From positions 11,266,001-11,330,000 of the forward strand of contig NC_089735.1 in the NCBI RefSeq assembly GCF_035083965.1: a DNA stretch of 64,000 nt, written 5' to 3'. The notes below the pieces were generated by a model. It made no database searches, was not told the DNA's origin, and saw nothing but the letters and a program-made list of their open reading frames with translations. How positions within the stretch are numbered: position 1 is the first letter of the stretch; every line of letters begins with the position of its first letter. Origin of the DNA: Branchiostoma lanceolatum. Lineage: Eukaryota > Chordata > Leptocardii > Amphioxiformes > Branchiostomatidae. The position numbers and the translations under genes are program-made. Positions 10,177 to 60,756 of this stretch are shown here, in pieces.

Positions 10177-10327
10177 AAAAGGAGCAGCTGACTCAAAGTG
10201 AAGTCAAGTTCAAGCTTTGTCTCTCTGTTGTTTTGTCATAGAACATACGTTCTACAAATGCAAATGTCAAGAGTTTCCTAAACATTGTCTTTTCCTGATA
10301 GATAGAGAAATACATCTACTACCAAAG

Positions 10328-31685: not shown

Positions 31686-34600
31686 GTTTGCTTTGTGAGA
31701 TGTTTTTGCCTTTCTTTTTGTTTTCTTTTAATGAATAATGTGATTAGTTTGGATCACCACTATCTTCAGCCTTCATTGTTAAGAATCTTCTGTCTTCTCC
31801 ATCGCCTTGTACACGTGTTTTGCTGAAATAGTTCACATCACAAAATGTATTGGTACACTGTCAAATCAAGACAACATTTCTTTAAAATTACAAAATTCCT
31901 GTAAAACTCCGACTGCCCTGTTCCATCATGTCATTTCTTCCTCAGACCAACCTACGAGATATCAAAGAAATTAATGCATAAAGTCTTGACCAATTCTCTT
32001 TGCGCACAGTTTAGAGCTATAAAACACAAATATTATCCCGCCCATGTACACATCAAAACTGTACGGACACACTAGGCCTATTGCCAATATGTACCCCATA
32101 GACCCTACAGTGTAAGAGTCCGTTGCTTAAACACGTCTAGGAGGCCAAGTTATCCAACTTGGTAATGCCAGCCAAGATACACCTAGGTGGGTACAATGGT
32201 AAGTAGCTAAGTAAACAAAACTACAAAGCCAGAGGCAACCGGATACTCTATTGACATTACATAGGGAACAAAAGTCTGGGCTTCGGGCTCTACAAATTAC
32301 AAGCAAGCAAGCAATGTGTTAGAATAAGTTACGAAATAAAATTGATAGGCACACAGAAAATGTACTGATGCTGCGTTTTGGGGTAAGCTATTGTTACACC
32401 CAAATTAACTTGAACAACCGCCCTTGAAAAACACAGGTAAATTTCCCAGAATCCTCAGCAAAGCAATTTCTAGCTGCGTCACACGAAGTCCAAAATGGAG
32501 GCAAAATCTACTACTCATACTACTCATAAAAAAGAAGCTGTACGACTTTTCTTCACCTGTGAACCTTGGCTTTTGACCTTGACATCTTTATACGTGGCTA
32601 AGGGTCAGCTGATAGAGCCAGTGATTGGTTGAGAGGGGTTGACGGGGATGACCTGGGCGCTGTCAACCTTCCCTGTACATAAGTGGGGGTGATGACGTCA
32701 CATGGGCAGCTCAGGCGGGAAATTTCTGTGATGTCAGATTCTAAAAATAGCCCAAACGTAACGGCTGTTATGTGATTAGAAAGTGAAAGGGATTCGATGA
32801 GAAAAAAAAAGACAGGTGGAGCCAGAAATTTAACAGAAACGGATCATTGACATTGTTTTAGGAATAGTAAAGAAGGTGATAGTCTCTTGACTTGCATAAT
32901 TACTATTAAATAAGGTCAGCAGGATACGCTTTCCGGACCTCAGAAGTAAATGTTGAAAGTATGCAAACTTTAAACAATCATGTAACTATACTTGTGTTAA
33001 AAGCCACCAAGATTATAGTTCCTTTCACTTTTCATCTGAAACATTACAGATTTCTTAAAGACAGTTTTCACGACTAGGTTAATCCTAGGTTCCTGTTCAT
33101 TTATTCGGAAGTCGAAAAGCAGAACTCCTTGCAGCTCCGGATTTCAATAGCTACAAAATGCAAGGGAAGATTGAAAAGAGGAAGTGAGTCAACTCAAAAG
33201 CCTATGGTAGGGCGAAATGCTGAAGATGACTAACTGAAAAACACTGATATACAAGTCGGAAGTGTCTTCCGAATTGTGTTGCCACACAATAAGACTGAAA
33301 ATAAAGGAAGACAGAAAATGCTAAATACCATTACATAGACGAGTCCATTCAGTCAACACATGGGGGCGAAAGTAGCAGGAGTCACAAATCCACTCTTCCA
33401 GTATTCGCCATGGCCACCAAAAAGGATGAAAAAGAGGAACTCTGGTTAACCTTTCAATTTGGCATTTGGTGGTATTTCGCGTGGGTTTCGGTGCTTCACG
33501 AGATCTCACTACAAAACACATTAGTTTGACATTTGTTTGTGTCATTGATGTGCTGGAGAATAAACTTTCGTAAGAATTTCCTCTAACCAATTTATATGCT
33601 AGAAATGCGTGGCGTAATACTACAGTTAGAATGAAAGCTGCTAGAGGGAAACAAAACCATTGCCAATATGTCATGCCATGTCACCAGGGCGGTTACTTGT
33701 CAAGCCCTGTTTGGTGGAAAACATTGTGTTCACGCACTGATCACATGTACAACTGATGGCATGGCATGTTGCCAATGGTTTCTTTCCAACCTGGTGAGTG
33801 GTGACACCGGGGAATCCCCTGCAACGGTTTTTCACGACGACGGTTATACTGGGAGTGGTTGAGATTTCAAATAGTCATGCGGAGACCATTGTGCGACACG
33901 TCAACCGCGCGAAATCTCCTTGTTCAGTTGGTGGCACAAACGGCGGGGCGCGGGCGGGACACGACCATAGTTCTGCGGTGCCATCTGTCGTCAGGACGTC
34001 CATGTAACTGCACCACTCACGGTAAGAACTTTATTTTTAACTTAAACAAAGAGCTCACCCATGTGAATCTGAATGATGCACATTGGTAACGTTTCAGGTC
34101 GTGTACTCCAAGCGCTTCACACGTTTCTTTCTCATATGTTTTGTGTAACCTTTGAGTTTGGTATGCTGGTTCCCCTCTTAAATTCATGGCTTCGTCGTTA
34201 TCTCCAAGCAAAATGGCAAAGACCAGGGGCTTTTAATCCGAGGTACGTCTAGCCCTAGGATATGCGTGAAATTGACGTTACGCTGCTCTCAAAGCAGAGG
34301 TCACGCTCCGGCTTGTTTTTGACGTCTTTTAAGGCGTTTTGTCGGGATTTCTATTTCGTCAGGTTTTCTTTTTGTCCGCTAGCCGTTTGGCACTCGTACT
34401 AGTCGTAGAGTAACGCTACGTCACAAGGTTCGTTTTCCTCTTTTGCTCGGTGGCTCGCAAGTTTCCATAGTGACGACCTGTCTTCTGAGGGTCCAAAGTG
34501 GGGCGTCAATTGCTTTTTGATTACATCATTGCTATCGTTGTAATCAAACACCGGTCACCGATCTCAACATTCTGGTATTTTCTGACCATGTCATGGAGCT

Positions 34601-35032
34601 AAAATAGTCACAAGTACAGGTTATATTACTTCTCAAGTCTTCGGGGCACTACGTCTTCCTTCTCACCCTTGTAGTTGGTTTTTGTCCATTGTCTCACACA
34701 CACTAGAAATGACGCCATACGTATTCCCTCTCAGTGAACAAAAACAAACTTCTCAAAATTGAGCAGTGTACTATGTAGGTGCAAGGACATTGATTATACA
34801 GTATGTCACTATCTTCGCATGTACATGTACATACATATACATATCATTTAGAAGGATGTACTAGTACACTGGACTAAAAACAACATTTACACAAATACTA
34901 TAGGCTCTGCAACTGTGACTATCATATTTCCCAACTTCATTTGTATTGCTGCTAACACTGTAAAGATCTACATCTCTTCATAAGTGAACACACACACACA
35001 CACACTCACACACCAATATCGTTAACTGTTTG
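31686..35032. other. Spacer upstream of IAP-1 and downstream of IAP-2
   Basis: No gene is supported. A 117-codon minus-strand frame at 33321-33674 has one hydrophobic stretch but no family resemblance. GC-rich sequence around 33890-33970 and the kB palindrome at 33811 suggest regulatory DNA for IAP-1. Confidence 0.5.
33811..33821. promoter_or_regulatory. kB site, palindromic 11-mer
   Basis: GGGGAATCCCC matches the NF-kB/Rel consensus GGGRNNYYCC on both strands. It lies 2.1 kb upstream of the IAP-1 start codon. Binding is inference. Confidence 0.5.
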
Positions 35033-35038
35033 TTTATT
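35033..35038 (-). terminator. Polyadenylation signal of IAP-2
   Basis: AATAAA on the minus strand, 15 bases after the stop codon and followed downstream by a GT-rich tract. IAP-3 has the same AAATAAACAAAC context at nearly the same distance from its stop. Confidence 0.6.
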
Positions 35039-35052
35039 TCTTCATTGTCTTT

Positions 35053-38000
35053 CTAAGCCAGAAAAGCTCTCTGGACTTTCAGGATCCGTGCCCTACATAT
35101 TGGGCATTTTCTACCCCTGGATCTCATGGTGTGAGCGCAGCCCTCACAACAACACAAGTGGCCACATGGTATAAATACCATAGTAGCATCATTAGACATG
35201 CAAATTTTACACATTCTTTCCTCCTTCATTCGCTGTAGTCTCCGCTGAAGTTCCTCCATTGATGCTGGCGTTTCTGTAAGAGATGACAAAACAAGATATC
35301 AAACCACATGTCAAAGAAATCTTTCACCACAAATATCATCTCCAAAGCAAACATTCTAGTTCATCATCAAGCAACTCTTACTAAGTGGCAAAGGATTTTT
35401 ATTTGGACCTCCACCATACACATGTGTACACATGCTATTCGTTTTCTAATAACCTTACTTTAAAATACGTTCATGTACAACTGTAACTCATTAACACAAT
35501 AGATAGCGTTTGAGTGAAACATACCATCTTCAGGCTCTTCCATCTGCTCTAGAGCTGGCTCCTCCGGTTCCTGGTTTCCAGTTGGCGTTGGCCCTGTGGC
35601 GTTTCTGTCCTCTTCATCTTCTGTGTAAGGATCTTCTCCCAGATCTTCGCCTTCGTCCATTGCTAGCAAAGATTCCACGAGGTCTGTCATGGTCGTGAAG
35701 GGTCCCCTCCGCGCGCGAAGTCTCCTGCGTACTACAATCTCTACATTCTGCTGACCGAAGCCCATCTCTACAACGTTCCTTACTACTCTAGAGTCCATGG
35801 CATCTAAGACACGTTCTTCAAACTCATCCTCTGGGTCTCCGTCCCCTACTTCAACTGTAACGTTTGCAGCTCCTACTATGAAATCTTGAACGAAGTCCTG
35901 CTGTGAGTGGTGATGCGCCACCTGGAAATGATGAGAAAAAAGGTTTAGATTTTTAAAATCATTCTTTTTTTTTTAAAACTCTGCAAGTTTACATTTGATT
36001 CAATACGAAAAAACAACAACCCAGAGCTTGAAGTGGTGACAGCCGGTTTCTAGTCTCATGCCCTCTACTTGCTACTGCTTCTTTTGTTATTCTATTTGTT
36101 CTAAAATGATGATTGTCACACATGCATTTTCTGGCTGATACCCATCCATGGCCTAAGGCTTTGCAATAAAAGAAAATATCGTCTTTGAAATAGTATCGTA
36201 ATATGATTTATGTCTTATGTTCCTGACCATATAATTGGAAACCTTTTCCCATTTGCTACACCAGGGGGACTAATGTTTCATACGTCAACTTTAAAATCTG
36301 TATGTTTGAAGTACTTACTTGTACGAGTGAAGGAAAGGTGTTCTTTATCTGACGGACGTAGCCGATGCCTCGTTCCCTTAGCACAAAGCCACATTCCTCC
36401 CCGTACCAACGTGCATGTTCGGTCCACGGGTCATCCCCTGCTTGCCAGTCCTTCAGGCCTCCCTCGCACCAGTAGCACTTGACCTGGTCATCAATGTCTG
36501 GAATAGCAAGGGGGTGGCAACAAGGTTAGAATTCATTAATCTATCAGAAAGGTTTTTGTGTTTTTTCTTTTACTTCTGCTGTGGTGTTGTGATAAGTTTT
36601 AACATTCTCTATAGAGCAAGGTAGGTGGCCTGGAATGAAGTCGTGTTGTGACCTGGTTGTTGATACCTGTGGTAAAGGCGGTAACAAAGTTAGGAAAGTC
36701 TCCATTTCCAAAAGGCCTTTGTGCTTCTAACAAGCCCTGATGTGCTCAATCCTTGAATGTATGATCAGAACAAACAGGATATCATTGTTAATGTTAAGGA
36801 GAATAACTATAGCATACAATGCATATGATAAAGTATCTTTGAAAAGATCAACTAAAATCAAGTTTACAAACTTTTTGTGTCAAGTTTATATGGGAAAGCA
36901 AATCAGAGCTATTAGTGGTGACAGTCTTCCTTGCTCATGTTTTACCTACAAAATGTAGAGAACACTCACATGTATAATAAAACCCAGCCTGTGCAAGCTT
37001 GCGTGGTGATATAGGGCTGTACAGGGGCCAGCGGAAGAAAGTCGACAACCGGTCTTCTTCAGACGACAGCTCGGGATGCTTCGGACAGTCAGTTCCTCCT
37101 GGTGGCGGTGGAGGTGGTTCACTCTCTATGTGCCCAAGCCTTTGAAAAAACAAAACACAAGATTTAACTTTAAAACATATACCGGTACTTTTAGACTGCA
37201 GTAACTGGAAACCAGGTGTGAGTGTGCCATAGCTGATTAAAAAAAAAACTGATTGCCTTTATAGGTATGTTTATGCGATCAGAATAAAATAAATATATTG
37301 TAACATTCCAAGATGGCACAATATAATTTTGACTATCTGGAAATAAAAGGATGTGAATCTCCAAAATCAATCCACAAATTGAGGTAGTAGGTACATGTAG
37401 GTATTCCAAGCCATGATGCAAGCTATTGTCTTAGGGAAAGTATGGAAGTAACAGGAAAGCAATCAGCAATGATACCTCTCTGGTGGATGTTCCACTGTTG
37501 AATCCTGCTGGGCGAAGTTCCTCCACTCTCCAGTTCTAGACTGCTGCGCGGTCCCTCCGTCAGGGCTGTCCTGTGGAACATTAGAGGTTGCAGGGTTGTC
37601 CAGGGGAACGTTGGAGGTTGCACAGTCCCTTATGAAGGGGCAGTGTGGGTAATGTCGCTTATGTTCCGTCTTTGGGTCATCGCCCTCCTCCCATTGGTGG
37701 AGAACACCTCCGCAGAACGCGCACTCCACTTTGTCCCGTACCCCGAGATAGAAGAAGCCGAGTTTCGCCAACAGTTCTGGGCGAACAGGCGTTCCTTCCG
37801 GCCAGCCAAAGAAAGTATGGACCCTATGAAGCTCCGTGTTTAAGTCTTTTGGACAGTGTTCACTGCAATGTTTTAGATTTCTAGGAGTCTCTGACGTGTC
37901 GTATGCATAGAAGTCAGAAGCTGCACATGCGTTACTTGCAGTATTCATGGATAATCTTTGCATTGGTTGTATACAAGAATCGGGAGAATCGTTTCCAGTG

Positions 38001-38644
38001 CTAGAAGATTGTTGTCTAACGATGTTTAATGTGGTACTAGTAGCATTGTCTGGTATGTCAACACCACTATGTCGTGAAGAAATGTTGCTTGGAGATTGTA
38101 GGGATTGATTGTCTTTCATGAAAAGTTCTCTTGCAAATGGACAGTCTTGGTTTTCTTGGTAATGCTTTTGAAGGGGTACATCTCCGTCCAACCATCCACT
38201 AATTGTCTGACCACATTGAAAGCATTGTACTGTATCACCTTGTCCTGTGTAGTACAGCCCAGCCTTTGCCATTGCACGCGGTTTTATACTTGCATTTCTA
38301 TCTGGCCATTTTGCGAATGACCCTAATCTAACGATTTCGGTAGTATACATGGCCTGTACACTAGGTTCCGCCCCAGCCTCTACAATACTGGTCATGAAGC
38401 AGGCACTACTAAATACTGGGTTCAAAGGCACCGAGGTTGAAACTTCTCTACTAGGGTTTAGAAGTGCTTGCTCCATGACACAAGGTGAAGAGAGCAGGGC
38501 AGTATCCTGGCCATCTATGTGATCTATTGGCCGAGAACACTGCCCATGCCCTGGTGCAGAGGCTAAAGCAGGGCCTTGTGACACCCATCTAGATCTGCTG
38601 CTTAGACTTTCTGTAGTGTTAACATTCAACTCACCTATGCTCAT
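35053..38644 (-). CDS. Inhibitor of apoptosis protein IAP-2 (3 BIR + UBA-like + RING)
   Basis: Five exons on the minus strand (38644-37476, 37139-36970, 36497-36319, 35921-35525, 35273-35053) give 711 aa, the longest of the three paralogues. A Ser-rich N-terminus of about 100 residues precedes BIR1 (106-173; Cys141, Cys144, His161, Cys168). BIR2 has Cys308, Cys311, His328, Cys335. BIR3 (420-488; Cys454, Cys457, His474, Cys482) is split by a phase-1 intron after YYT. The UBA-like region with EMGF is about 549-593, then an acidic linker. The RING starts at Cys660 (MCKIC) and ends QRAFLA. There is no CARD. The third exon has no ATG of its own and is found only by reading through from the neighbouring exons. 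A Pro run (PPPPPPGG) precedes BIR3. Function as for IAP-1: caspase or IBM-ligand binding and ubiquitin ligase. Two 5' UTR pieces are visible upstream. Confidence 0.93.
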
Positions 38645-38839
38645 TTTTACTAGACTTTCAATATTACGTGCGTCACAAATGTGAATGCTAAGGTGTATCT
38701 CAACACTCTTCTTATTGGACTCAATTTTGACGATGACCGTAATATTGGCGGTGAGATTTGGATTCCAACGTTGTATTTGGGACTAGAACAACTTGTGTTT
38801 CCTTCCCAAATGACAGCACAGAAATGTTGTAGATTGAGC
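38645..38839 (-). other. 5' UTR part of IAP-2 coding exon 1
   Basis: The strong acceptor TTTCACTACAG ends at 38840. From 38839 downward the frame of the start codon meets a TAG shortly before the ATG at 38644, so this part is untranslated and 38644 is the likely start. Confidence 0.6.
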
Positions 38840-42529: not shown

Positions 42530-43560
42530 CATGAAAAATGGAGATATTGTTTTGGGTGTGTCTGTCTGTTTGTCTGTCTGTCTATTTGTGTTTCCGGACT
42601 ACTCTAGTCAGCATAACTCAAGAGCCTCTTGATGGATTATGATGATATTTCGCATGTGGGCGGGTGATGTGAAGCCGAAAATCAAGATCGATTTTGGGCC
42701 CCCTGGTATGTGACCTTGGTACTGCAGCAGAACTTCAGATTTTGTATCTTTTGGCCTGGACGTGCTGTGGTCTTGATTTTGGGTGGCAGATAGTTTGTGA
42801 TGTAATAAAGAAGTGGTATAGGTTTGGGCCCCCTAGCAGCTTCCTCTGGAACTGCAGGGGCGTTTTTGTGAAAATCTTCTTAGGAGAATAACTGAACAAA
42901 GGAACGACGGATTCCCTTGATATTTAGTATGCATGTAGCTTAGATAGAGATGTACACATTGAACTGCAAATTATGCTAATTTGGTCTTAATTTGCATAGC
43001 TAATGAGCAAAATCTATATTTGCAGTGTTTTCCATTATAAGACTCAAATACATGTAACGTATGTAGTTCATGAAAAGTGGATCATAAACAGATACCAATT
43101 ATGCAAATAAATTCCTAATCTGCATAATTAATGCAAAACACCATATCTCATCTAATTGGAAAATTATAGGACTGTCAATATGATACTTAGTATGCAGGTA
43201 ACTTTGACAGAGGTATACATAATGAAGTGTAAATTATGCTAATTGTGACTTAATTTGCATAGCTAATGAGGAAAATCTATATTTGCAGTGTTTTTTATTA
43301 TCAGACTCAAATACATGTAACATGTAGTTTATGGAAAGTGGAGCATCAACAGATACCAATTATGCAAATGAATTCCTACTTTGCATAATTAATGCAAAAA
43401 CACCATCATTCATCTAATTGGAAAATTATAGGACCGTCAATATTGCAACATGTGTAAGTTAGATAAAACTGTTTATGACCAAGCATATATTATGCAAATG
43501 TGTAGGTCATTTGCATGAATAGAATTGTTCATGGAGATATGAGGTCGTGGAACTCTTGTT
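42530..43560 (+). repeat. Dispersed repeat with a 263-bp tandem duplication rich in ATGCAAAT/ATTTGCAT
   Basis: The left part (42550-42800) matches the repeat in P450 intron 6. From about 42906 two direct copies of a ~263-bp unit follow (TTATGCTAAT at 42971 and 43234), plus a partial third ending near 43500. Each unit holds octamer-like words (AATTTGCATAG, AATTATGCAAAT, TTGCATAATTAATGCA). The end, GGAGATATGAGGTCGTGGAACTC, reappears inverted at 44447-44465. Confidence 0.75.
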
Positions 43561-45144: not shown

Positions 45145-46203
45145 TACTTCAAGTCAAGTCAAGTCAAACGGAAAACTGAATGTTCAGGACCCGGAAGGTA
45201 AGTTGTTGTACAGTCTGATGGCGCAATGTAGGAAGGATTGCTGCAGTCTCTTAGTTCTGGCATAGGGAACAGTGATGTTGTGACTGTTCCTTAGTGTTCT
45301 TCCTGTGGCAGAGTGTCTTAGAGCAGGCACCAGGTCGTGCAAAGGATGGTCAGTTCTCAGCATGGCCTTGAACAGAGTCACAGCAGCGGCTTCTCTTCTC
45401 TCCTTCAGGGAGGGAAGGTCTGGAATGGAGCGCCTGCCACCGCGCGAGATAATCCGGAGGGCGCGCCTCTGCACTCTCTCTATACTGGCTGCCAGCTCCT
45501 CACTGCAACCAACCAAAAGGACGTGCCCGTACTCTAGAACCGGGCGTATGAGACTCAGGTACACTTGGATAAGGTCATCGACACTCATGCCCTGCTTTGC
45601 TAGCAGACGGAGGTAGTGAAGCCTACTCGATGCCTTTGACACCATAGACATCATATGGTCACGCCAGGAAAGTTTGTCATCAAAGATGAAACCGAGCCCT
45701 TTGGCGACTCTGGTGATTGGCACAGGTTCGCCCCCGAGAGACAGAGGCGACAGTACAGGTGGGTGTCTGGTAAAGCAGATCAGCAGCGACTGACTTTTCT
45801 TGCCGTTCAAGAGCATGTCGTTGCGGTCGGCCCAGTTGTCCAGCTGCGTCGCTTCCTCTGTCATAGCATTGTCACTGTCGGCGTTCTCGACGGAAACTGA
45901 TCTTGACAAGCCCACGTCGTCTGCATAACCCACGTCTAAAGTGTTACTGTGGACTGTGGCGCGAGAGCTCATGAACAGAAGAAAAAGATAAGGCGACAAC
46001 ACTCCACCTTGCGGAACTCCTGACGTAAGATGCCGCCAACTACTGAGCTTGCTGTTGACAGCCACGCGCTGACTGCGACCCTGCAGGTAGTTATACAGCC
46101 AAGCTACCATACGTGGATTGGCCACAACGTCATTCACCCGCTGTAGTAGAATGGAGTGGTTCACCCTATCGAACGCCTTGCTCATGCCAAGACAGGATAA
46201 CAT
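45145..46203 (-). mobile_element. 5'-truncated non-LTR retrotransposon (reverse transcriptase fragment)
   Basis: A 339-codon minus-strand frame (46203-45184) encodes the palm and thumb of a CR1/jockey-type reverse transcriptase. It has SKAFDRVNHSILL (motif A region), SGVPQGGVLSP (motif B), YADD (motif C), LGFIFDDKLSW, and the C-terminal RVQRRALRIISR region. There is no endonuclease or earlier RT motif: a stop lies two codons before the first Met, so the copy is 5'-truncated. Motif A reads LGMSKAFD, with Gly where the catalytic Asp is expected, so it is probably dead. A (TTGAC)n tail at about 45149-45168 marks the 3' end. Confidence 0.85.
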
Positions 46204-46971
46204 GAATTATGACTTATCTAGGCCATCGACGAAAACAAAACAAGTTTGCAAGGTGAATATTTTGTTTATTATCATGCTTGATATAATTGGATAGACAAAT
46301 AATCACATGGTAACTTATATTCTTTACTGTATTCTATCTGATATGAAACTTCAATGATTGATGTATCAGCAAATCAACGACTTATTTGTAAGTTTTCTAA
46401 ATAAAGGCAAACCATACACAGGCTGGTCTGTATATAGATGAGAAACAATTCGAATATTTGAGAATTTGGAAAGAATCAAACAACTGTGATAGTCCTTGCG
46501 TATTTGTACAGCTAGTGGTATGATCCTTTTCAAACAGTGTTGATACTATAAAATTATACATCAAGATTTAAAACCCATGTATACAAAGTGTAGAAAAATA
46601 TATATTTACATGTTCTTTGTTCACTCCTTGATATCTATTTACATCTGCTTATACTTCATTTGTACCGAATTATGAGCTTTCAAACGTTGACAAAAGCAAT
46701 AAGATTGATACACATTTGAACGCTTTAGTAACTACTATAACATCGAATGATTTTGTCACACGATTTCAGCAAGGTTTTCAGAAAAGTTGTTTTTATCCCA
46801 AGCGATTATATACACATACACCACAACCTCTTTAATCACAAAACAGCGCTAGCTCGATTGTGTTCGCCACGTCCATATCGGTCCCAAGAATGCCGTCGAC
46901 AAAGTTAGCTGTCATAAACCTATCGAATGACGAGTATGGCAGGGCCCTTACTAGTAAGAGACACTTTGGCT
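46204..46971. other. Spacer and 3' flank of the small RING gene
   Basis: AT-rich, with no gene seen. ATTAAA on the minus strand at about 46832 could be the polyadenylation signal of the small RING gene. Confidence 0.45.
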
Positions 46972-49255: not shown

Positions 49256-49393
49256 AAATGTTAACAAAGCGCTGTTGTACTCAGCTGGTTGTACTTGTGG
49301 GCATGCTTACTCGTGCTCTCAGAGGCCATACGATCAAGTACTGTTTCTCGTCTTATCTCATTACAATTTTTCATCTGTCTTTTTGCAGCGTCA

Positions 49394-49399
49394 ATGTGA
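49394..49399 (+). promoter_or_regulatory. Start-stop upstream ORF (ATG-TGA) in front of receptor gene 1
   Basis: ATGTGA is in frame with the main ATG at 49403 and ends three bases before it. Minimal start-stop elements of this kind can hold back initiation at the next ATG. The in-frame TGA also shows that 49403 is the real start of this exon. Confidence 0.4.
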
Positions 49400-49402
49400 G
49401 GC

Positions 49403-51251
49403 ATGCAACACCCTTCTTTGTTCCTCTCCATTGTCTGTCTGCTCTTTGCCCTTGCTGCTCGACCCGTCGCACTTCGAAGACTCGCCAGGTCAGTGCTACG
49501 ACATCGTGGCCCTTTGATCTGCAGAGAGGGCACGTACGCCAGCGAACCGACGAGGTCGTGCGAGCCGTGTGGAGAGCTTTGTCAGCCTCAGAGGGGGACA
49601 CAGAGAGAGTGTGAGTTGCGCTGCAAAGGTGAGAGGCAAAAAAACAAAGTATTCAGTACTAGTACTAGTGTAATTATGCTCTTTTTCAAAGGCTTCGAAG
49701 ACAGGTGTGTTGTTACGTATGCTGTAGATGAACCTCTCTTCTTTCCCGACTTAAGTTTATTTCATGTGAAATTTATTGAATGAATCACGTGATTCACCAT
49801 TGACATTATCCGCACTTAAACTGTGGACATGCACATAGCGGGTAAAACTGGCCGAGGACAAATATTAAGTTTAACATCGGGAAATTCCAACGAAGTCACT
49901 GAAAGGGGGTTCCCCTCTTGTTATGCCAGTGTGGCTCACAGCAGTTGCACCATACATACTGACTTAATGTGTGTAGAAAACATACCGGCAGCGACGACAC
50001 CCGATAAAAGGTGTTCAACCTTAAATGATCTATAGTTATTTACACTGTCTGTCTTTGACACCTAGGCTTCAGCATTCCGACGGTGATCGCGCCCCTGCAT
50101 GAGAAGGAGACCGCAACACAAGAAACAGCAGCTCTAAGGCCAACTTCAGTCGTGGCACCCATCCAAAAGATGGGTTCTGAAGATGTGCAGGCGAAGACAG
50201 GTCTGTAGGATCACAGTCCATATCAGTCGACGATATGAATGCAAGCAAAACGTCTTAAAAGCTCGTGAAAATTGACCAGTATTCTCTACATTTATTTGTT
50301 GACATAATTTGACCTGTTGCTGATTGTGTAGCCTAAATATTTTCTCTAACTTAAATCTACAAATGTAGGACTCACCATCTGGCAGATTGCTGAAGTACTA
50401 GCCATCCCCTTTGGATGTATAATGGCTGGCCTGGCGGTCCTTGGCTACTGCCACTTCCAATTACGGAGACAGGTAAACGGTACCTTTGCATCAATCCCTT
50501 ATTATTTCCATGGATATCTTGTGCTCAAAGCAGTAATTTATCACCATTTCCCAGTCTAATTTGGCGGTGTCGATTAATCTCTGGGTGTTTTGATGAGCAC
50601 ATCGCATACTTTTCTCATAGTTATAGCCTGTTCATGATCACCTATTTTCCCTGTTGGTTTAGGTCCAAAAGCAGAGCAGCTACTCACCAGGACCGGCATC
50701 GCTCTCTCAACAACAACCTCCAAGTGTCCATGTAGCCGTCTCAACTCCACAAGGCTTTGCCACCCCACCTTCGGTGGTTAGCGTTGGTCAGCAACCGCGG
50801 GCAGCGCCCGAACAGCCACCATTGCAGCTGCCACAAGAGAGTCCGTCACTGCCCATCATGGTCACTGCCGGTATGTCGCATTTATCCAGCGAAAGAACGT
50901 GACCTTTTGCAGAGCTTTATTTCAGTTAGCCTGGACTAGCTTTTGAATTTTGCGTACATTGACAATGTATTTCTGACCATTTCTGTCAGTTGCGCGGTAA
51001 GAGGTGTAATGGTAAAGGGTCTGCTTCATTGTCGATACAGCTAGCCTACTGTGTTTCAAAGATCTTTTGGTGACCGCCTTTGCATTGACTGTTCTTTCTC
51101 TGTTATGATAGGTGAACGGACTGCTCCCTCTAACACCGTGCACATCTACGCTACTGACACAAAGCCGCATGTGCACAATGTACAGAACGACCTTGTTGAG
51201 GAAGACCACGTGGCAGGCAGACAGAGGACACGTCAGGAGACCGAGATCTAA
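49403..51251 (+). CDS. TNF-receptor-like type I membrane protein 1 (single BCMA/Fn14-type module)
   Basis: Five exons (49403-49628, 50066-50200, 50369-50472, 50663-50870, 51112-51251; phases 1,1,0,1) give 270 aa. A signal peptide (first ~23 residues, LFLSIVCLLFALAARPVA) precedes one Cys-rich module with spacing C-x12-C-x2-C-x3-C-x9-C-x3-C, close to the single module of BCMA (C-x12-C-x2-C-x3-C-x8-C-x3-C). A Thr/Ser-rich stalk, one transmembrane helix in exon 3 (about LAIPFGCIMAGLAVLGYC) and a basic HFQLRRQ stop-transfer follow. The cytosolic tail is Pro/Gln-rich and ends with a block shared with receptor 2 (APSN.V.IY.TDTKPH...QETEI). ETEI fits a class I PDZ ligand, and TRQE fits the minor TRAF2-binding consensus. 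No death domain. An acceptor at 49387-49388 sits 14 bases before the ATG, so a 5' UTR exon exists upstream. Ligand unknown. Confidence 0.85.
49879..49915. promoter_or_regulatory. Two kB-consensus sites in intron 1 of receptor gene 1
   Basis: GGGAAATTCC (49879-49888) and GGGGGTTCCCC (49905-49915) both fit GGGRNNYYCC and lie 16 bases apart, suggesting an intronic Rel-responsive element. Confidence 0.4.
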
Positions 51252-52160
51252 GACTGCAATGACGGGATCTCCCAACAACTGTCTCTCGTACCATCCTCAT
51301 TTCCTAGATTTTGATTTCTACTAATTTAAATCTTCCTAATGTCATATTGTTGTAAGAGAATGTCAGCGATGTCAGATCTCGGTAAAGACTTTTGATCGAT
51401 AGAGGTTTATTTGCCACCATCGTGAAGTCTGCATCTCATTATGATTGTGTGTAACATTTCTTGTGTAAAACGTTAACATATTTGTCACTATACCCAACAT
51501 GAAGATGTGTTTCTGTATGATAAACTACTGCACTGACAAAGTAATGTCTGTTCACCGATGTCAGGCGGATCTGTAAACCGTGATCCTGGTCACTTAACGT
51601 TCGTCTAACGTATGACGTGGTACCTTGGTTGACGTGTGTAGTAGTGAGAGGGAAACACTTTTATGATTGTTGGTGTAACCTTTGTGACGTAGTCTTGTAC
51701 CTCGTAAACATAAGAAAGATCAGCTTGACATGTGTCTACTTATGGTTTATGAGTTTGAAAATTGCAAACAAAACTGTTGCTTTTACATCTTGTTACGTTC
51801 GTGTGATTTTCTGTTTTTTATTGATCAGTAAGGTTTGTTCTTTCTATCCCTCGTTTGTATGTCCAAGCTCTATTACAGTCCATGGTGTTACGTTGTACAG
51901 TCCCCAGCTTCTGTCTGAGTGAAGATCATTACACATCATAAACTTCATACTAATCCAAGGGGACACTTTAAACTATTGAAAAAGCCACAAAGAATCTATC
52001 CGACAAATGACCTTTCTTATACGTTGATTTCCCCGCCCCCGATGCACCGTCAAGCACGATGCTCTGTTTGTTGTATTTAGCAATTTTCTAGTTTAAAAAG
52101 GTTACATTGTGCTATCTGAGTATAAAAGAGACATGGACTCAATAGATTCTGGTTGGTTTG
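51252..52160. other. Convergent spacer between receptor gene 1 and IAP-3
   Basis: It contains the 3' UTR of receptor gene 1. No other gene seen; the open frames at 51617-51922 and 52109-52393 are shadows or chance, the latter lying over the IAP-3 RING exon on the other strand. Confidence 0.55.
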
Positions 52161-52166
52161 TTTATT
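52161..52166 (-). terminator. Polyadenylation signal of IAP-3
   Basis: AATAAA on the minus strand, 13 bases after the IAP-3 stop codon, in the context AAATAAACAAAC also seen after IAP-2. Confidence 0.6.
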
Positions 52167-52178
52167 TGAATGTCATCC

Positions 52179-55100
52179 TCACGCAAGAAAGGTTTTCTGA
52201 ATTTTCTGAACCCGTTTTCGACATATCGGACAAGATTGTTTTCTCCTGCACATTGCATTTGCACACTCGACACAGCAACAGAAATGACCACATGGAATTA
52301 GGACGACATTGGAATTGCGATACAGGCAAATCTTACAAAGACGTTCTTCTTCTAACTCACGAAGTTTTCTCTGTAGAGCATCCTTTGAAGTAGGTGTTTC
52401 TGCAAAAGATGATAAAAGTCAGTTATAAAACGTTTATTTTATGGCCCGTCACTGCGATTGTCCTTTTTGTCAGCCATGATTATATTATAAACCCTGAATT
52501 CCTCCACATAAAAGTAGACCATGAAATACTGATTACTTCGGTGGTGACATTATGTGTTTTACTCGTATTTGTATCTTTGATATCTTAAATCAACTCAGAT
52601 ATCTAAAGTAAAGGACACATCCACAAATGATACAACTGCACTACTTTCATGCTTTTCATTGAATAGGTTACAAAAGTAATAATAAGTCCCCTTACTAAGG
52701 GGAGGCCCTTACCATCCTGAATGGCATGTGGATTCTCATTGATTTCCACAGACTCCAGTTGGACAGTTGGTTCTACTTCATCTTCTGTTGTGTTATTGCT
52801 AGGCTGTTCCTTGCTTCCACCTAAATATTGAATATATATAAATGAATATCATAAAGAAAATGTTAAATCTTGAAGCATAATCTAGAGGGCTTGGGTAGTT
52901 GCTTGATAGTTATTCATTATGGTGAACAGATGATCATGAAAATTACATAACAACTGCAATTACTCAAAAGGAAATTACAATGATTTGACTTGTTATTGAA
53001 ATGAAAAATACCTTCTTTGCCACCGTCTTCGACAGCCAGCAGTGCCTCTACAAGGCTAGTCAAAGTTGTAAATGGCTGACCGATACTCCGTAGACGTTGT
53101 CCGACGACCGTCTCAATGTTATGGTGATCAAAACCCATCCCTGCAGCGTCTCTGACTACGCGAGATTCCATGGCTGTTTCCAGCTCACTGCCCTGTTCTC
53201 TCGGTAGATGATTGCCTTCTTGTACCTCTATCATGGAAGGTCCACCCATGTGGTGTTCATGTGTTTCGACGACCGTGCTGCAGTGTTTCTGCAGGTTAAA
53301 GAAGATTGTCTGTTTTTGTCTGTGCTCTAACCTTTCTTCTAAACAGCTTCGTACCAACTGTAGCTTCGGCCATTGCATATGCACAGTAACTGTCTCTACA
53401 AAACATGATTGTGTTGTGTAAAAGGGAACTCCAATTGCCTCTCAAGTCGACTTGTTTTTCTTAGTTGAAACTGTGTAACTTTGGGCGAGGAGAAAATTCA
53501 TTGCATCTTGAGCTAGCAATCAGGGATGACTCACACACTATTGTTGGTAAAGTAATGACTATACATGTGAGTGTTTTAAATCTTTGTATCTATATCATTC
53601 TTTACACAGCATTAAATAGTAGCTCCTAGAGAATAGGAGCTTAGGATCATACCTTAACATCGCTGATGTATGCAATGCCCTTCTCCTGTTGGACGAAGCC
53701 GCACTCTTGTCCGTACCATCTTGCATGTTCTGTCCACGGGTCGTCGGAGGGCTGCCAGTCTTTCAGACCCCCGTCACACCAGAAGCATTTCACCTGGTCA
53801 TCGATATCTGCATAGAGATCAAAACGATTGCAATGGTCATAGATCGTGAACATTTCATCCAGACTAGCTATGGATGATATCAAGGCCTTTGAGTTGGTTT
53901 TATCATAAGTAACAGTCACTGTATCCAATAGATGTCATATTTTCTACAGGTTTTTCGGCAACATCACTTTTAAATGAGTTTTGTTTTCGTTTGAAATAAG
54001 TTTAGATGAAGGGTGCATGCACATAAAAGTACAGAAGAGCAACAATTGGATGTATTAACAATGTTTTCTCGAAGACATTAAGATTATTGTAACTTACAGG
54101 TGTAAAAGAACCCAGCTTTCGCCAGCCGTCGTGGTGAGATGGGGCTGTACAGAGGCCAGCGGAAGAAGGTCGACATGCGCGAGTCCTCTGATGCCAGCTC
54201 TGGGTGCTTTGGTCCAGCAGCTGCCCTGACGGAAGGTTGAACTTGGCTTTCGATATGTCCGTAACTGTCAGAGATGGGGCATGTATAATGATTAGCTCAA
54301 TATACACCATGTTTTTACGATCGTCTTAAAAATCAGTTCATAAATTTTCATATCTTTTCAACGCGGCATTCCTTGGTATCAAATAACATGAATGAATTTT
54401 CAAAACTACCGTCTTCTCGTCTTGTTGAAACAGGATAAATTATGAACTAAGAATACATGTTCATTTACAATCTTGTGTAACTAAATGTTTCCACAAGGTT
54501 AGGTTTCGTTTGAAAAGGTAAGAACCTACCTGATAAACGTTGGCTTTGCTGTGAAGTAAATGGTTTCCATTGCAGACTGTCCCGTGGTTTCACCGATAGG
54601 GATATTTGAGGTAGCCATACCTCGCACGTATGGACAGTGTCTATAATGCCTCTCGTGTTCTACTCTAGGGTCGTCTCCCCGTTCCCATTGGTGGAGTACA
54701 CCACCGCAAAAGGCACATTCTACCTTGTCTCTTACCCCAAGGTAGAAGAAGCCTTCTGCTGCTAGTACTTCTGGTGTTACTGGGGTGGCAAGTGGCCAGC
54801 CATAACTATAGTATGTATGAAGGCGGTGAATTTCGGTGTTCAGGTCTTTCCTACACCTGTGATCACAAGTTCTGATATCTACAACGTGTCCTGCAGATGT
54901 GGGTGACGGTGTTTGTATGGATTGATGACGTTTAGCATGTTTTGCCTCTGCTTGATCTTTATGAAAATCGTCGGCATTAAACACATGTTGCTTAACCTCC
55001 TGGTTTATTTCAGATCTGTCAAATTTGTCCGGAACATCAGAATTTAACGGCAAATGACTTGTACAACTATCAAAACCGCCTTGTCTGCAGCTGTTTTCAG

Positions 55101-55449
55101 GTTGAAGTTTTTCAACTTTTTCTCTCGCATACTTACAATGAGGAAATAGCTCAAAATGTTTACGCAAAGGGTCCTCTCCTTCTTTCCAAGTGTTTATATT
55201 GACATTTCCATTACAGCTAAAGCATTGTAAATAGATCCCGTCACCAGGGTAGAAAAACCCGGCTTCTGCTAGCTTAAAGCTGGATAGGTACAGCGGTAGT
55301 GCGACAAAAAGGGAATATGTGGCCATTCTGCTAAAGTAATTAGAATGGTTAGGTTTATAACCACTATCTGTTTCTACCACACTGCGGTGAATGCTATCGG
55401 CACGATCTGATGTTAGATCACTGTCAGCAGAGTCATAACCATGTGCCAT
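52179..55449 (-). CDS. Inhibitor of apoptosis protein IAP-3 (3 BIR + UBA-like + RING)
   Basis: Six exons on the minus strand (55449-54530, 54264-54098, 53807-53653, 53288-53012, 52820-52713, 52399-52179) give 615 aa. BIR1 has Cys76, Cys79, His98, Cys105 with the same two-residue insertion as IAP-1. BIR2 has Cys245, Cys248, His265, Cys272. BIR3 has Cys370, Cys373, His390, Cys398. The UBA-like region with GMGF is about 455-499. A 36-codon acidic linker exon (52713-52820) is absent from the other two genes. The RING exon (Cys563, Cys566, then PCGHFCCC and CPIC, ending QKTFLA) is 221 bases, exactly as in IAP-2, and has no usable ATG, so it is easily missed. The start of exon 4 is the least certain junction (CTTTAACCTGCAG chosen). 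There is no CARD. The N-terminus MAHGY resembles MAQGY of IAP-1, suggesting these two are closest. Confidence 0.9.
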
Positions 55450-56796
55450 TTGACGACGTTTTCAGTTGCAAATTAATATGGGTCACGGGAATTTTGTTGT
55501 GGAAAAGATTTTGGTTGTAATGTCCAAGAGACTTGGAACAAAGGACTGGGAAATTTTGGAAATGGAGAAATTTCGTTGTGCTTGAGTGTTGACCTCCGCG
55601 TGACGTAGCCTGCACTTGTCGGAAAGAAACAGAAATCAGTTTTACGAAACGGCAAAGGCAAGTATAACATGTGAAAATTGATATTTAATGATACATTCAC
55701 AGCAGTGAAATAAAAAATCATATCCATGTTTGTGTCAAGAAATGTCAACGCTTGTCGTGTGATACGCATCGATATGTATGAAGTGGTTTTTATTATCTGA
55801 CAGGAGAAACATATTTTGTCTAAAATATGTCATATCACTTACACACAATTTAATATGATAACATAATTGCATGGCAAGTGTATAAGATAAGATAAAGTAA
55901 GATACGATGACTTCTACTGTATGGATATATGTGCATTTGTTTGGTGAGACTTTGGTTGAATTTCTAACACTTAGACAGTTTTGAATGCACAATCATGTAT
56001 TGTTCAATGATATGTAAACTATAAAGTAGATAACATATTATATTACATCATATTATATTATATCATATCATGTTATATCATATCATATTGAATATAGGTT
56101 CAGGTATGGAAGACGTACATGTAAAATATTATATAAACCATGCGTTCAACACTCATTGCTGCAAATGTTTCGTAATTGTCATATGTTTTCTTCCCATGCA
56201 AATATTTTTCCTTTCCGGCGGTTAAAAGTCACCGACCAGACTATTGATATTGATGATAACTTAATTGTCAATGGTCTTCGAATCACAAACGCCACAATTC
56301 CGTTAAAGACACTTTGCTCCAATAGCTAAAACCTGAGCCTCCGACATCACTTTGAAACCATTGCAATGTAAACATGTCACGGTACACCACTCTTTTGGCG
56401 GGCCGCCAAGTTCCATACCTATTACTCACCCTCGACTCGAGATCTTTGCAAACGTGTGCAAAAAACGGTGGTGACGTGTGCACCGTTCCGGTCCAACAAC
56501 AATGCCAGATTTGTCTACTGCGTTCTTCAGTTTTCAATTTCCGCCCAGCACTGCTGCCTTCTGTGGATTGTTGCTTCTAAAGGCTGGAACAAGTCGGTTT
56601 CCTTACGTCAGAGGTTGATGTAATGGAAAGCCGGCACGCAGTACATCGATGTAACGGTTTGATTTCAACTGATGAAGTCTATTCGGGGCTTAAACGTAGA
56701 TTTTAGAAAGAGAGTCACAGCAGCCTAGGCCCGCCCGGTCGGGAGACGCGGGACGAAAAGGTCTGAACAAGTGCTCTTCACTGTAAAATGTTCCAA
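55450..56796. other. Divergent spacer between IAP-3 and receptor gene 2
   Basis: No gene seen. It holds an AT-rich tract of TATCA/TATTA units at 56035-56092. The first 100 bases upstream of IAP-3 contain CGGGAATTTTG, a near miss to a kB site. Confidence 0.5.
56035..56092. repeat. (TATCA/TATTA)n AT-rich tandem tract
   Basis: Irregular pentamer and decamer units made of ATATC, ATATT and TTATA words. Confidence 0.8.
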
Positions 56797-56807
56797 GGGG
56801 ATTCCCC
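56797..56807. promoter_or_regulatory. kB site, palindromic, between IAP-3 and receptor gene 2
   Basis: GGGGATTCCCC stands inside a longer 19-bp palindrome, CCAAGGGGATTCCCCTTGG (56793-56811). It is 1.35 kb upstream of IAP-3 and 0.43 kb upstream of receptor gene 2, on opposite sides, so it could serve both. Confidence 0.5.
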
Positions 56808-57100
56808 TTGGTCACAAAACCCCACCTCATTTGTTTGCATGGACGCTGCCATTCCAGACGTCCTGACACTTTGCACGAGCTGCAATCTATTGTTTCCTCA
56901 CAACCTGTGCACATTCCTTTGGAAATAACGGGGCACATGCTTGTACGATTATCCGGCAGAATCTTAATCTTGATATTGCTGCACATAGCGATACAATTAT
57001 CAAAAGCCACTGCGAAAACTAGTAACCAAACATGTCTCGCTTCAAAAGGTCTTGTTTTCTGATTGGACGAGAGACGCAAGCGCAAGCGTTACATGGGAAG

Positions 57101-57147
57101 GGGGAATCCCATTCGTAACGCCGCCTGAGCAAGTCACGGAATTCCCC
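57101..57147. promoter_or_regulatory. Two kB-consensus sites in the proximal promoter of receptor gene 2
   Basis: GGGGAATCCC (57101-57110) and GGAATTCCCC (57138-57147, read GGGGAATTCC on the minus strand) lie 135 and 89-98 bases before the ATG at 57236. Both fit GGGRNNYYCC. Confidence 0.5.
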
Positions 57148-57235
57148 CTGCACATATCGGTACGTACGCTGACCGCAGAAAACTTTATCGACAGTATACC
57201 TTGCCTTTTTTTGTGTGAGCTCTACTGTTTTGAAC

Positions 57236-60200
57236 ATGCAAGTCTTCATCTTTGGAGTCGTCGTCTGCTTGTGTATAATCTCTGGAGCACAGTCTCGTTC
57301 GCGGCACAGACCCGGCAGCCCCCCGTTGGAGTGTGGGTTGGACGAGTACTACAACTCTGCTACACATCACTGTGAAGGGTGTAAGGATCTCTGTCAGCCA
57401 CACAGGGGCACACTTGGGGAATGTAAACGACTTTGTTCAGGTTAGACCACATAATTCTTGACAGTTGTTTTGCCTCAACAGGCATGGACAATATGAATTA
57501 GAGATATGGCTTTGTACCTGTGATTTTGGTTCTGGGTTATTGACTAGGATAAAATGAATTTTTCAACCTTGGTTTTGTAACATGCTCGTTTTGTGTTACA
57601 AATAGGAATTAACAGTATGTAGAAAGTATATATTGCGTCGACATTTGGGTCAGTTTGGCGGGAAATCCTAACCTTTAAAAAGCCATAAAAGTTCAAAGGT
57701 TATCCCTTATTTCATCATCCGGCGACACCTTATTTGCTCACCTGAGACCGGAAGTGAGTCACGGGCTGTACCACCCATCTACAGAGGGGCGGACTGGACA
57801 CAAGGGAGGGGGATTTTATTGCTGTATGTGAAGTACGTGCCTATGTCAATATGTTTATTGATCCTCACTCAAAAGTCAGTATGGGCAAGTCCAAACTGGT
57901 TCAACTCTAAGAGATGCCCCCAAAGAACGTTATGAATGTTTCAAAGGTATTCGTAACTTGCAAGTACAATTGGATTTTTGGATATTTTACATTCCCCGAG
58001 AATACAATTTTATCCACAACAATCACAAGTATGTCATGCAGGGTTGATTTTTGTTTGTGCCATGTGTGCTTGGACGTATACGTGTAGTTGCTATGTCAAT
58101 GTGGAAACAAAGACGACTGACTTGGCAGCTCTCCAAAGATCCGACAAACAGGTGTGGTGTTACGTGCCACCACTGGCGTCTGTTGCCCAACTTCCTCTTT
58201 TTGATCCCTCCATCGAAACTATCGGCTTTGCAATAGGCTAGGGTTACTGCCACAACATGTTTTCTTTCAGTCCTCAAGCCGTCACACTGTCAACGACCTT
58301 CGGCGGAATTTGTTGATCGCCAGAAGGTTGCCGAAGTTCAAAATCACAAGCTTATTTTTCGTCTGTTACATTGGACGGGGCTTGTAGACCTGCAAACATC
58401 AGGCGATTCCTGAAAATCACACAGAAAACACTTCCGACCGAAAATGTACTTTAGAGCTCGCAGAACGGTCGGGTGATCTCTTTTCTGCTGTCTGACGGCC
58501 CCTGTAGGTGTATAAACTGTCAAGACCACCTGTTACAGTAAAGCTGTCGCAGTAACTGACAGCATAGATTATTTAAGTGCCATGTTTACTGACCCAAACA
58601 CAAATTGTGACAGATCGATCGATGAGTGCACAGGCGTCTACAACAGTTTCACAGAACTTTACCATATCATCTGATTACTGAGTTGTTGCATATAAATTAA
58701 GTATTCTTTCTGTCCGTTCGTAGCCTACGAATTTCCGACAGCAGTAGTGATATCTCTTCCTGATGGAGAACAAAACAAGCCATCGACCTCTCCCGGAACG
58801 ACAACTGTCTCAGTGACAGAACCACAGGACCTGCACAGACACAATCCCGATAACGACGAAGGTTAGTCCACTTAGCTTATACACATGGATTACGTTCAGA
58901 ACACAGGAAAACAAGTCTCGAAAATTTAGGATAACCGCACAGCATGGATTAGCTGTCATGCTGACAGAGATTCAGTTCGGCAAAACCGTCCTCACACCGA
59001 GTCTCCAAACAATAGCGGCCTCTTGCGGTATTCTAAATCATTCAATCATCGATGAACGTCGAGCCTATTTGGTAATACGGCATTGAGTATTTTACGATCC
59101 CAACGAGACAAGGTGCATTCACAGTCATCTTAGCACACTTGGTTTTGTGTAGCATAGTTTGTCAAGCATTTGATGACAAGTTTTGGCTAAATCATCTCAT
59201 CTGAAGTTTGATTTCAGAAACATCTATATCAATATCAATTTCTTTTGATGCATTAGAGTCTATCTTCTGGAGGTATGGTACAGCGGGATTCACCATTGCG
59301 CACTTTTGTGTCACCCTGACATTGGTCCTCGGTTGTCTTCAACAGCGAAGGGAGGTAAAGACTTCTTATTTTCTGTTTACCCATGTATCTTTTTACTATA
59401 TGAAACGTTTCGCCGATGCTATCTGTGCACACTTCAACTATGATCAATGATAGTGGCGTGAACAAACTTGAGGGCTTAATTTCAAATGAATGAACCCTAA
59501 CTTTCACGGTATATTTAGATGTTTTCTGAAAGACCAACTTTTTTCGGCTATTCAAGATAGGCCTCTAGTAATGTTAGAATAGATTTCATCAAATTACTCT
59601 GACTCTGATCTGGACAACTGCAGGTTATAATCATAGTAGATTAGAACATACACGTGTCTTGGAAATTAAAGTCGTTGAAGTACAGTTCGGTGTTAGCAGC
59701 ACACGAATGTCCTTGAGTTAACTTCGATATCTTCACGTGTTCAAAAGGAGCTTAAAACAGGGACTGAGCTTATCAAAAGTAAACCAGATCAGAAAGTTTT
59801 TTTTTTTACAATACCACTACTTGCAGATCCGTAAGCTGTGGAGGCTTCAAAACCCTCACCAGCACCAAGTGCAGATCCAGCCTCCGGGGATGCAGCCTCC
59901 CTGTGGACTTCCTAACAACCCACCACCATACGTACCACCCATGACATGCGCATGCGCATCCCCATCAGCAAACATGACTGCCCAGCAGCAGGCTAACGAG
60001 GCGGAGCCACTGCTGACATGGGCAAGGCAAGGTAGGTCTATCATGACTGTGTCAGCAGGCTGTTCACTAGTCTCATCTAAGAATGTCCCCTGTCATTGCC
60101 TGACACTGTGTTGGCAGGTACATTTCGGCATTTTTTTCACTCAAATAAGCAGCTCTGGGGCTTGACACGTAAATGTGCGATCATAGCAAATGTATTGTAA

Positions 60201-60756
60201 TAAAGAGAATACAGAGTACCATTACAAATGGTAATGGGTAAGCTTTCAAATGATTGTTATGATTTAATGTATTGATTAAGTAGCAAATTGCATATGATCA
60301 ACCTAAACCAAGTTTCAAAACTTCCTGTTTTAGTTTTGTCATTGGACGTTCTAACCATTCTATTCTGATGATGCTGAGCCGTTCTGAAGATAATAGTGCA
60401 ATGTAGTAGGTGCACAACTTAATAACTGATATGCTAGTACACCGAGTAACATTGGCTGTATAGACTCCATACCAAACTTCTATTCTTGTTGATATTTGCA
60501 AAGTCGACATTCCAGACCTACTGTCAACAGATGTTAATCACCTTTTTTGTTTTCCAGCAAGTATTTGGTAACGTTACCTGTGAGATTTTTAACAATGTTC
60601 TTTTCCTTTATAGACGGTTCTAATGATGTTCCCACCGCCCCATCCAACCGTGTTCCCATCTACACAACCGACACTAAGCCACACACCAGCGACCAGGCTG
60701 ACCTTCTCCGACAGGATCAGTCTGCCACGCGGACTCCCTTCGAGACGGAGATTTAA
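57236..60756 (+). CDS. TNF-receptor-like type I membrane protein 2 (single BCMA/Fn14-type module)
   Basis: Five exons (57236-57440, 58724-58861, 59218-59354, 59827-60031, 60614-60756; phases 1,1,0,1 as in receptor 1) give 275 aa. Signal peptide MQVFIFGVVVCLCIISGAQS; then one module C-x12-C-x2-C-x3-C-x9-C-x3-C (CGLDEYYNSATHHC...CKRLC), identical in spacing to receptor 1. After a Thr/Ser-rich stalk comes a transmembrane segment in exon 3 (about GTAGFTIAHFCVTLTLVLGC) and LQQRRE. The cytosolic part is Pro/Gln-rich with NPPPYVPP, a PPxY (WW-domain) motif absent from receptor 1. The last exon repeats the shared block (APSNRVPIYTTDTKPH...ETEI) with the same class I PDZ ending. An upstream in-frame GTG at 57215 is not needed; the ATG directly precedes the signal peptide. 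No death domain. Ligand and adaptor are unknown. Confidence 0.85.
58270..58510. repeat. CG-word-rich dispersed repeat in intron 1 of receptor gene 2
   Basis: CTTCGGCGGAA, ATCGCCAGAAGGTTGCC, GGACGGGGCTTG and GCTCGCAGAACGGTCGG resemble, in diverged form, the GC-rich repeat at 25280-25615. The last 35 bases of the window (AAGCCCCTGTCACACTTGTG) may begin another copy. Confidence 0.35.

Follow-up and report, generated by a model that had tools for sequence, protein, structure and literature searches.

In a 64,000-nucleotide stretch of contig NC_089735.1 of the lancelet Branchiostoma lanceolatum (positions 11,266,001 to 11,330,000; the whole stretch is called the window, and all coordinates below refer to it), two neighbouring genes, here named gene a and gene b, encode small cysteine-rich proteins that resemble TNF receptors (TNFRs) with a single cysteine-rich domain (CRD). 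Exons were located and then joined, which gave five coding exons on the plus strand for each gene, GT-AG boundaries at all eight introns, and junction phases of 1, 1, 0 and 1 in both. Gene a spans positions 49403-51251 and encodes 270 residues, and gene b spans positions 57236-60756 and encodes 275 residues. Both proteins share one layout, in which a hydrophobic N-terminus is followed by one six-cysteine module, a stalk, one transmembrane helix and a tail some 120 residues long. The signal peptide and the transmembrane helix are predictions made by hydropathy alone, from a hydrophobic N-terminal segment and a hydropathy peak in each protein. A preliminary description of this DNA had proposed the same exon number and phases, which the joined exons bear out, as well as the signal peptide and the membrane helix, with which the hydropathy profiles agree. 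It had also called the genes a tandem pair; they are neighbouring paralogues on the plus strand, but minus-strand open reading frames (ORFs) of a cIAP-like gene lie between them.

Each protein holds a single six-cysteine module with the spacing 12-2-3-9-3, as first described and as found both in the module translations and in a six-frame pattern scan; direct comparison likewise upheld the proposed difference of one residue from the spacing of human BCMA (12-2-3-8-3). Across all six frames of the window, the exact cysteine pattern was found at two places, gene a and gene b, and it was absent from 60 first-order Markov windows. When the genes were compared with tblastn, they matched one another in the CRD exon (E 2e-8) and in the last exon (E 8e-7), and no third receptor-like module was found in the window. 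The proportions of silent (pS) and replacement (pN) differences between the paralogues were 0.88 and 0.35 across 35 codons of the CRD, and 0.89 and 0.26 across 40 codons of the last exon. Since silent sites are saturated and pN is lower, genes a and b are old paralogues that are constrained in the module and in the last exon, the two exons compared. The longest run kept between the paralogues, L-C-Q-P-x-R-G-T, lies over the loop joining two predicted helices, and a threonine three residues ahead of the second cysteine is invariant in both modules.

It is exceedingly improbable that genes a and b are gene-model artefacts or pseudogenes. The models are derived from genomic DNA, and this lends such an account some room, but the reading frames are intact, the phases match, every intron has GT-AG ends, and replacement differences are fewer than silent differences in both exons compared. 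Upstream of gene a, a pyrimidine-rich sequence resembling a 3' splice site (49370-49403; ctgtctttttgcag) stops 14 bases short of the ATG and suggests an untranslated 5' exon. Within those 14 bases, an ATG is directly followed by TGA (49394-49399).

Table 1. Coordinates of the coding exons of genes a and b and of the cIAP-like gene between them.
Feature	Position	Strand	Content	Basis
Gene a exon 1	49403..49628	+	Putative signal peptide and six-cysteine module (module 49520-49624)	Exon joining, hydropathy, predicted model
Gene a exon 2	50066..50200	+	Extracellular stalk	Exon joining
Gene a exon 3	50369..50472	+	Predicted transmembrane helix, hydropathy peak at residues 127-145	
Gene a exon 4	50663..50870	+	Pro/Gln-rich cytoplasmic region	Exon joining
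Gene a exon 5	51112..51251	+	Conserved tail TAPSNTVHIYATDTKPH..., TRQE TRAF2-type pattern at residue 264, PDZ-ligand pattern TEI at C-terminus	
Gene b exon 1	57236..57440	+	Putative signal peptide and six-cysteine module (module 57332-57436)	Exon joining, hydropathy, predicted model
Gene b exon 2	58724..58861	+	Thr/Ser-rich extracellular stalk	Exon joining
Gene b exon 3	59218..59354	+	Predicted transmembrane helix, hydropathy peak at residues 137-155	
Gene b exon 4	59827..60031	+	Pro-rich cytoplasmic region, PPPY at residue 192	
Gene b exon 5	60614..60756	+	Conserved tail TAPSNRVPIYTTDTKPH..., PDZ-ligand pattern TEI at end	
cIAP-like gene between receptors	52179..55461	-	Outer bounds of ORFs	ORFs grouped by proximity

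Sequence similarity and predicted fold of the modules

The module of gene b was compared with the sequences of PDB chains, and BCMA occupied ranks 1-8 (8 of the 10 matches), with a best E of 0.037. As a yardstick, the second CRD of TACI (CRD2), a receptor with two CRDs that has ligands in common with BCMA, reached BCMA in the same sequences at a best E of 0.081. A shuffle test was also performed, in which the cysteines were held fixed and the other residues were shuffled (n = 2000). One of 2000 shuffles was as good as the match of gene b to BCMA (z 4.3), 5 of 2000 were as good as that of TACI CRD2 to BCMA (z 4.3), and none of 2000 was as good as the match between gene a and gene b. By these sequence measures, gene b is roughly as close to BCMA as TACI CRD2; the same does not hold for gene a, which is therefore tied to BCMA through gene b only. 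The similarity of TACI CRD2 to either gene lay within the shuffles, and Fn14 rose above them for neither. Fn14 was considered as the nearest relative on these grounds and found to be unsupported rather than excluded, because Fn14 fails the same test against BCMA itself (368 of 2000 shuffles as good).

Other profile comparisons carried little weight. A profile to which rows for BCMA and TACI were added gave 21 matches, 12 of them to BCMA or TACI and the others to OmTx1-3, erbB-2 (2) and BAFFR (4, E 0.19-0.64), with neither Grindelwald nor Fn14 among the 21; it is not counted as evidence, because its BCMA and TACI matches arise by construction. NCBIfam gave no match for gene a or gene b, and this library is prokaryotic and hence says little. 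Two Pfam matches of gene a, RdRP_5 (E 0.23) and LptF_LptG (E 0.54), were far below the cut-off and were dismissed as chance. Membership of the TNFR family is not proven by sequence.

The fold of each module was predicted with AlphaFold2, template-free and from two-sequence alignments, and the best of five models per module was retained. A beta-hairpin followed by a helix-loop-helix was predicted in both modules, with a predicted local distance difference test score (pLDDT) of 83.5 for the 41-residue core of gene a, the other four models scoring lower, and of 61.4 for 49 residues of gene b. These models were compared with the PDB by Foldseek, which scores sequence plus shape, and the best 50 of 113 matches for gene a and the best 50 of 53 for gene b were considered. 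For gene a, ranks 1-13 of 113 were taken by Grindelwald (2), BCMA (9) and TACI (2); Grindelwald ranked first, with a template modelling score (TM-score) of 0.71, a root-mean-square deviation (rmsd) of 1.8 Å and an E of 0.057, and the TM-scores of the BCMA chains among these 13 were about 0.53-0.57. For gene b, ranks 1-18 of 53 were BCMA, Grindelwald or TACI, with BCMA at ranks 1-13, Grindelwald at rank 14 (TM-score 0.40, E 1.0) and Fn14 further down at rank 29. Among the matches listed, LDLa and other small cysteine-rich domains came further down. It should be noted that these ranks amount to few independent observations, because BCMA is present in the PDB many times.

The preliminary description had expected a disulfide pattern of the A1/D2 type. 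D2 and C2 are alternative disulfide pairings of TNFR modules, and the spacing found here could fit either alike. Structure prediction gave the hairpin and two helices of such a module, with Grindelwald, BCMA and TACI as top neighbours, but A1/D2 is not established, because Grindelwald, which the model of gene a matches best, has a helical module of the nested C2 type according to the available excerpts on that receptor. Taken together, the cysteine spacing, the shuffle result for gene b, the predicted fold and the structural neighbours support a TNFR-type architecture built on one BCMA-like module, none of these being significant alone by the usual cut-offs.

Whether genes a and b are orthologues of the BCMA/TACI group, which would bind an APRIL/BAFF-like ligand through a DxL hairpin, was considered as well. 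The spacing lies one residue from that of BCMA, and BCMA heads both the PDB sequence matches (1-8 of 10) and the Foldseek ranks (1-13) of gene b; however, the position of the BCMA DSL motif reads NSA in gene b and SEP in gene a, and the predicted fold of gene a is nearest to Grindelwald. Furthermore, the two proteins look like type I proteins by hydropathy and carry a putative signal peptide, whereas BCMA, TACI and BAFFR are type III in the part of PMC6001812 that was available. Orthology by way of DxL was rejected, and because the motif is missing, and by the N-terminal hydrophobic segment, orthology as a whole is very unlikely. The kinship with a BCMA/TACI/Fn14 group that was first suggested thus keeps the spacing, the shuffle result for gene b and the fold on its side, but the missing DxL motif and the type I look tell against its BCMA/TACI part, and its Fn14 part is unsupported.

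Excerpts of the literature on Grindelwald report that this receptor likewise lacks a DxL motif, that double mutation of His66 and Asn67 abolishes Eiger binding, and that Thr51 is also essential. Judged from residue numbers, His66 and Asn67 would fall in the same loop as the L-C-Q-P-x-R-G-T run, by distance from the preceding cysteine, and Thr51 would sit at the same offset as the invariant threonine if the hairpin module ends in Cys54. As for ligands, one of four groups of TNFSF genes in Branchiostoma floridae is closest to TNFSF13 and EDA, according to an excerpt of PMC7674686 that cites Huang 2008.

Cytoplasmic tails, cIAP-like neighbours and proposed mechanism

The last exon of both genes encodes a TAPSNxVxIYxTDTKPH stretch and a C-terminal ETEI, and by pattern ([ST]x[VIL]) the TEI end is a class I PDZ ligand in both tails. 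The small set of motifs scanned does not cover the conserved stretch (in 51112-51251 and 60614-60756). In gene a, the TRAF2-type pattern TRQE is cytoplasmic, and a second such pattern, ATQE at residue 92, is extracellular; in gene b, the motif scan identified PPPY in the tail. No death domain was found in either protein, and the tails are without any Pfam domain (Pfam, E<=10). The tail had been described as short and without a death domain, and the latter part stands, but the tail is not short, its length being close to that of the ectodomain.

The minus strand of the window carries three cIAP-like genes, at 29062-38782 and 52179-55461, with BIR domains in each and DNA that is about 77-81% identical where it matches. 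Their UBA_BIRC2/3 matches were above the cut-off in one case and below it in two, and RING was found in both of the genes checked for it. The gene between the receptors encodes two BIRs in one ORF and a third split across two ORFs (one half below the Pfam cut-off), together with a clear RING and a UBA match that fell below the cut-off. Its transcription converges with that of gene a and diverges from that of gene b, and the approximately 1.8 kb between its coding start and that of gene b (55461-57236) is possibly a regulatory region shared by the two; a scan for bacterial promoters says nothing useful about an animal gene. In vertebrates, cIAPs act with TRAF2 downstream of TNFRs that have no death domain, and the arrangement of receptors and cIAP-like genes is suggestive of a functional link, although linkage alone is weak evidence. 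One account of this arrangement is that genes a and b encode conventional TRAF-type TNFRs, in which the tail recruits TRAF2 and the adjacent cIAPs to act on NF-kB or JNK and the PDZ-like end is incidental. The TRQE pattern of gene a and the presence of three cIAP-like genes, one of them between the receptors, fit this account, but the three TRAF patterns that were scanned are all absent from gene b, the TEI end is found in both tails, and gene neighbourhood is a weak guide to function; we regard the account as unlikely.

We consider it probable that genes a and b encode small type I, single-CRD TNFRs that couple a TNF-family trimer to PDZ scaffolds. A trimeric TNF-family ligand would bind the module of hairpin and helix-loop-helix, trimerisation would cluster the tails, which have no recognisable death domain, and the tails would signal or localise chiefly through the conserved last exon and its class I PDZ ligand, -TEI. 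A parallel is offered by Drosophila Grindelwald, the intracellular part of which binds the polarity scaffold Lin7 (Veli) and Traf2, as given in an excerpt of PMC8024323. Gene a may further recruit TRAF2 through TRQE, and thereby cIAP-type ligases like that of its neighbour. Because TEI is present in both proteins and the TRAF2 pattern in gene a only, and because Grindelwald and Lin7 set a precedent, PDZ coupling is favoured as the output common to both, and TRAF/cIAP recruitment would be possible for gene a.

Several observations weigh against PDZ-coupled TNFRs. Genes a and b are known here from genomic sequence alone, and where the preliminary description had looked to TNFR profiles for support, Pfam gave no TNFR family at E<=10 for the two proteins or the two modules. 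Among PDB sequences, the module of gene a matched the toxins OmTx1 and OmTx2 only, and no TNFR, and its similarity to BCMA lay within the shuffles (300 of 2000 as good); the remaining 2 of the 10 matches of gene b were toxins as well, and a two-sequence profile of both modules matched just OmTx1, OmTx2 and one ribosomal protein. The model of gene b is weak (the four models below the best one have pLDDT 44-50), its superposition on the 13 top-ranked BCMA matches is poor (TM-score 0.46-0.52 by query, rmsd 4.1-4.9 Å), and no Foldseek match of either model reached E<=0.001. Moreover, the DxL motif of BCMA is missing, Grindelwald has eight cysteines (X2-C2) and the modules here have six, the PDZ ligand is a three-residue pattern, and the cytoplasmic TRAF2-type pattern is confined to gene a. 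Kinship with OmTx1-3 was considered and set aside; the toxin matches cover only the C-x3-C-x9-C-x3-C hairpin, which was judged to be local shape.

The absence of a TNFR profile match in Pfam and the helical-hairpin toxins matched by gene a would also suit small cysteine-rich transmembrane adaptors outside the TNFR family, with a Shisa-like layout, a convergent six-cysteine module and the tail (PPPY, PDZ ligand) as the working part. Shisa adaptors have a signal peptide, a cysteine-rich domain, a transmembrane segment and a proline-rich tail with PPxY and a PDZ ligand in the part of PMC10531659 that was available, and the PPPY of gene b and the TEI end of both proteins match that layout. However, the Shisa cysteine pattern, C*C*CC*C*CC*C, is missing from both modules, neither of which has a CC doublet, Pfam gave no Shisa match at E<=10, and the first 13 (gene a) and 18 (gene b) structural matches are TNFRs. 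The probability that these proteins are Shisa-like adaptors is accordingly held to be low.

Elsewhere in the window, part of an amino acid permease gene (932-1669, plus strand), an EcKL (ecdysteroid-kinase-like) gene split across two ORFs (10202-11626, plus strand) and a retroelement reverse transcriptase domain (RVT_1; 45187-46206, minus strand) were identified. At 6557-6795 lies an imperfect palindrome, about 238 bases long and 89% identical to its own reverse complement, and at 42918-43443 about 265 bases are duplicated in direct tandem with 88% identity.

Relation to known single-CRD receptors

The preliminary description held that the invertebrate history of such receptors was poorly known; it is less blank than that, as Wengen and Grindelwald are single-CRD TNFRs known in flies (PMC8024323 and PMC6684607, in excerpt). 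Domain-based counts list 10 CRD proteins for B. floridae in the available part of PMC4979521, and 36 TNFRSF genes are cited in that of PMC12843592; genes a and b are without a Pfam match and may therefore have been missed in counts of this kind. No description of them was recognised among the matches listed, available in part, for literature on amphioxus or invertebrate TNFRs that are single-CRD, BCMA-like, BAFF-related or IAP-linked. Two amphioxus receptors, Bbt-TNFR1 and Bbt-TNFR2, were reportedly described in 2007 and may or may not correspond to genes a and b.

Neither the origin of BCMA, TACI and Fn14 nor the link between insect Grindelwald and vertebrate TNFRs is easily settled, since a single module of 40 residues holds little sequence signal. 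What seems new is a receptor pair that lies between two known groups, with a PDZ ending common to both genes. Receptors that resemble both Grindelwald and BCMA make these questions testable, and the PDZ ending provides a handle on whether Grindelwald inherited its link to polarity from an ancient ancestor. A bolder proposal, tentative and on balance doubtful, is that genes a and b survive as intermediates of a single, ancient lineage of bilaterian single-CRD TNFRs that includes insect Grindelwald and vertebrate BCMA and TACI. If this were true, gene a would retain a Grindelwald-like fold and gene b a BCMA-like sequence, the PDZ-linked tail of both would tie TNF sensing to cell polarity, vertebrates would have lost the polarity-linked tail as the group passed to B-cell control, and the placement around a cIAP gene would be an inherited cluster of receptor and effector.

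Among the vertebrate receptors, Fn14 is a type I protein. It is similar to genes a and b in having one CRD, with a helical module of the C2 type in the excerpts available, and it appears among the Foldseek matches of gene b; its spacing is 12-2-2-8-2, and it exceeded the shuffles for neither gene. TACI CRD2 is a Foldseek neighbour of both models, but its spacing is 14-2-3-6-3 and its sequence similarity to both genes is within the shuffles. BCMA is likewise a structural neighbour of both, with a spacing one residue off and a similarity to gene b that exceeds the shuffles; it is unlike them in its DxL motif, in the putative signal peptide found here, and in its sequence similarity to gene a, which is within the shuffles. 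Grindelwald differs in its number of cysteines and in its C-x3-C-x11-C-x3-C spacing, compared by description rather than by sequence, where x9 is found here, and it is a distant match for gene b. Nevertheless, it shares with both proteins the absence of a DxL motif and a single CRD, predicted here to form a hairpin and helix-loop-helix, it is the top structural match of gene a, and its tail, which binds Lin7 and Traf2 in the excerpted account, may have counterparts here in the patterns TEI, in both proteins, and TRQE, in gene a.

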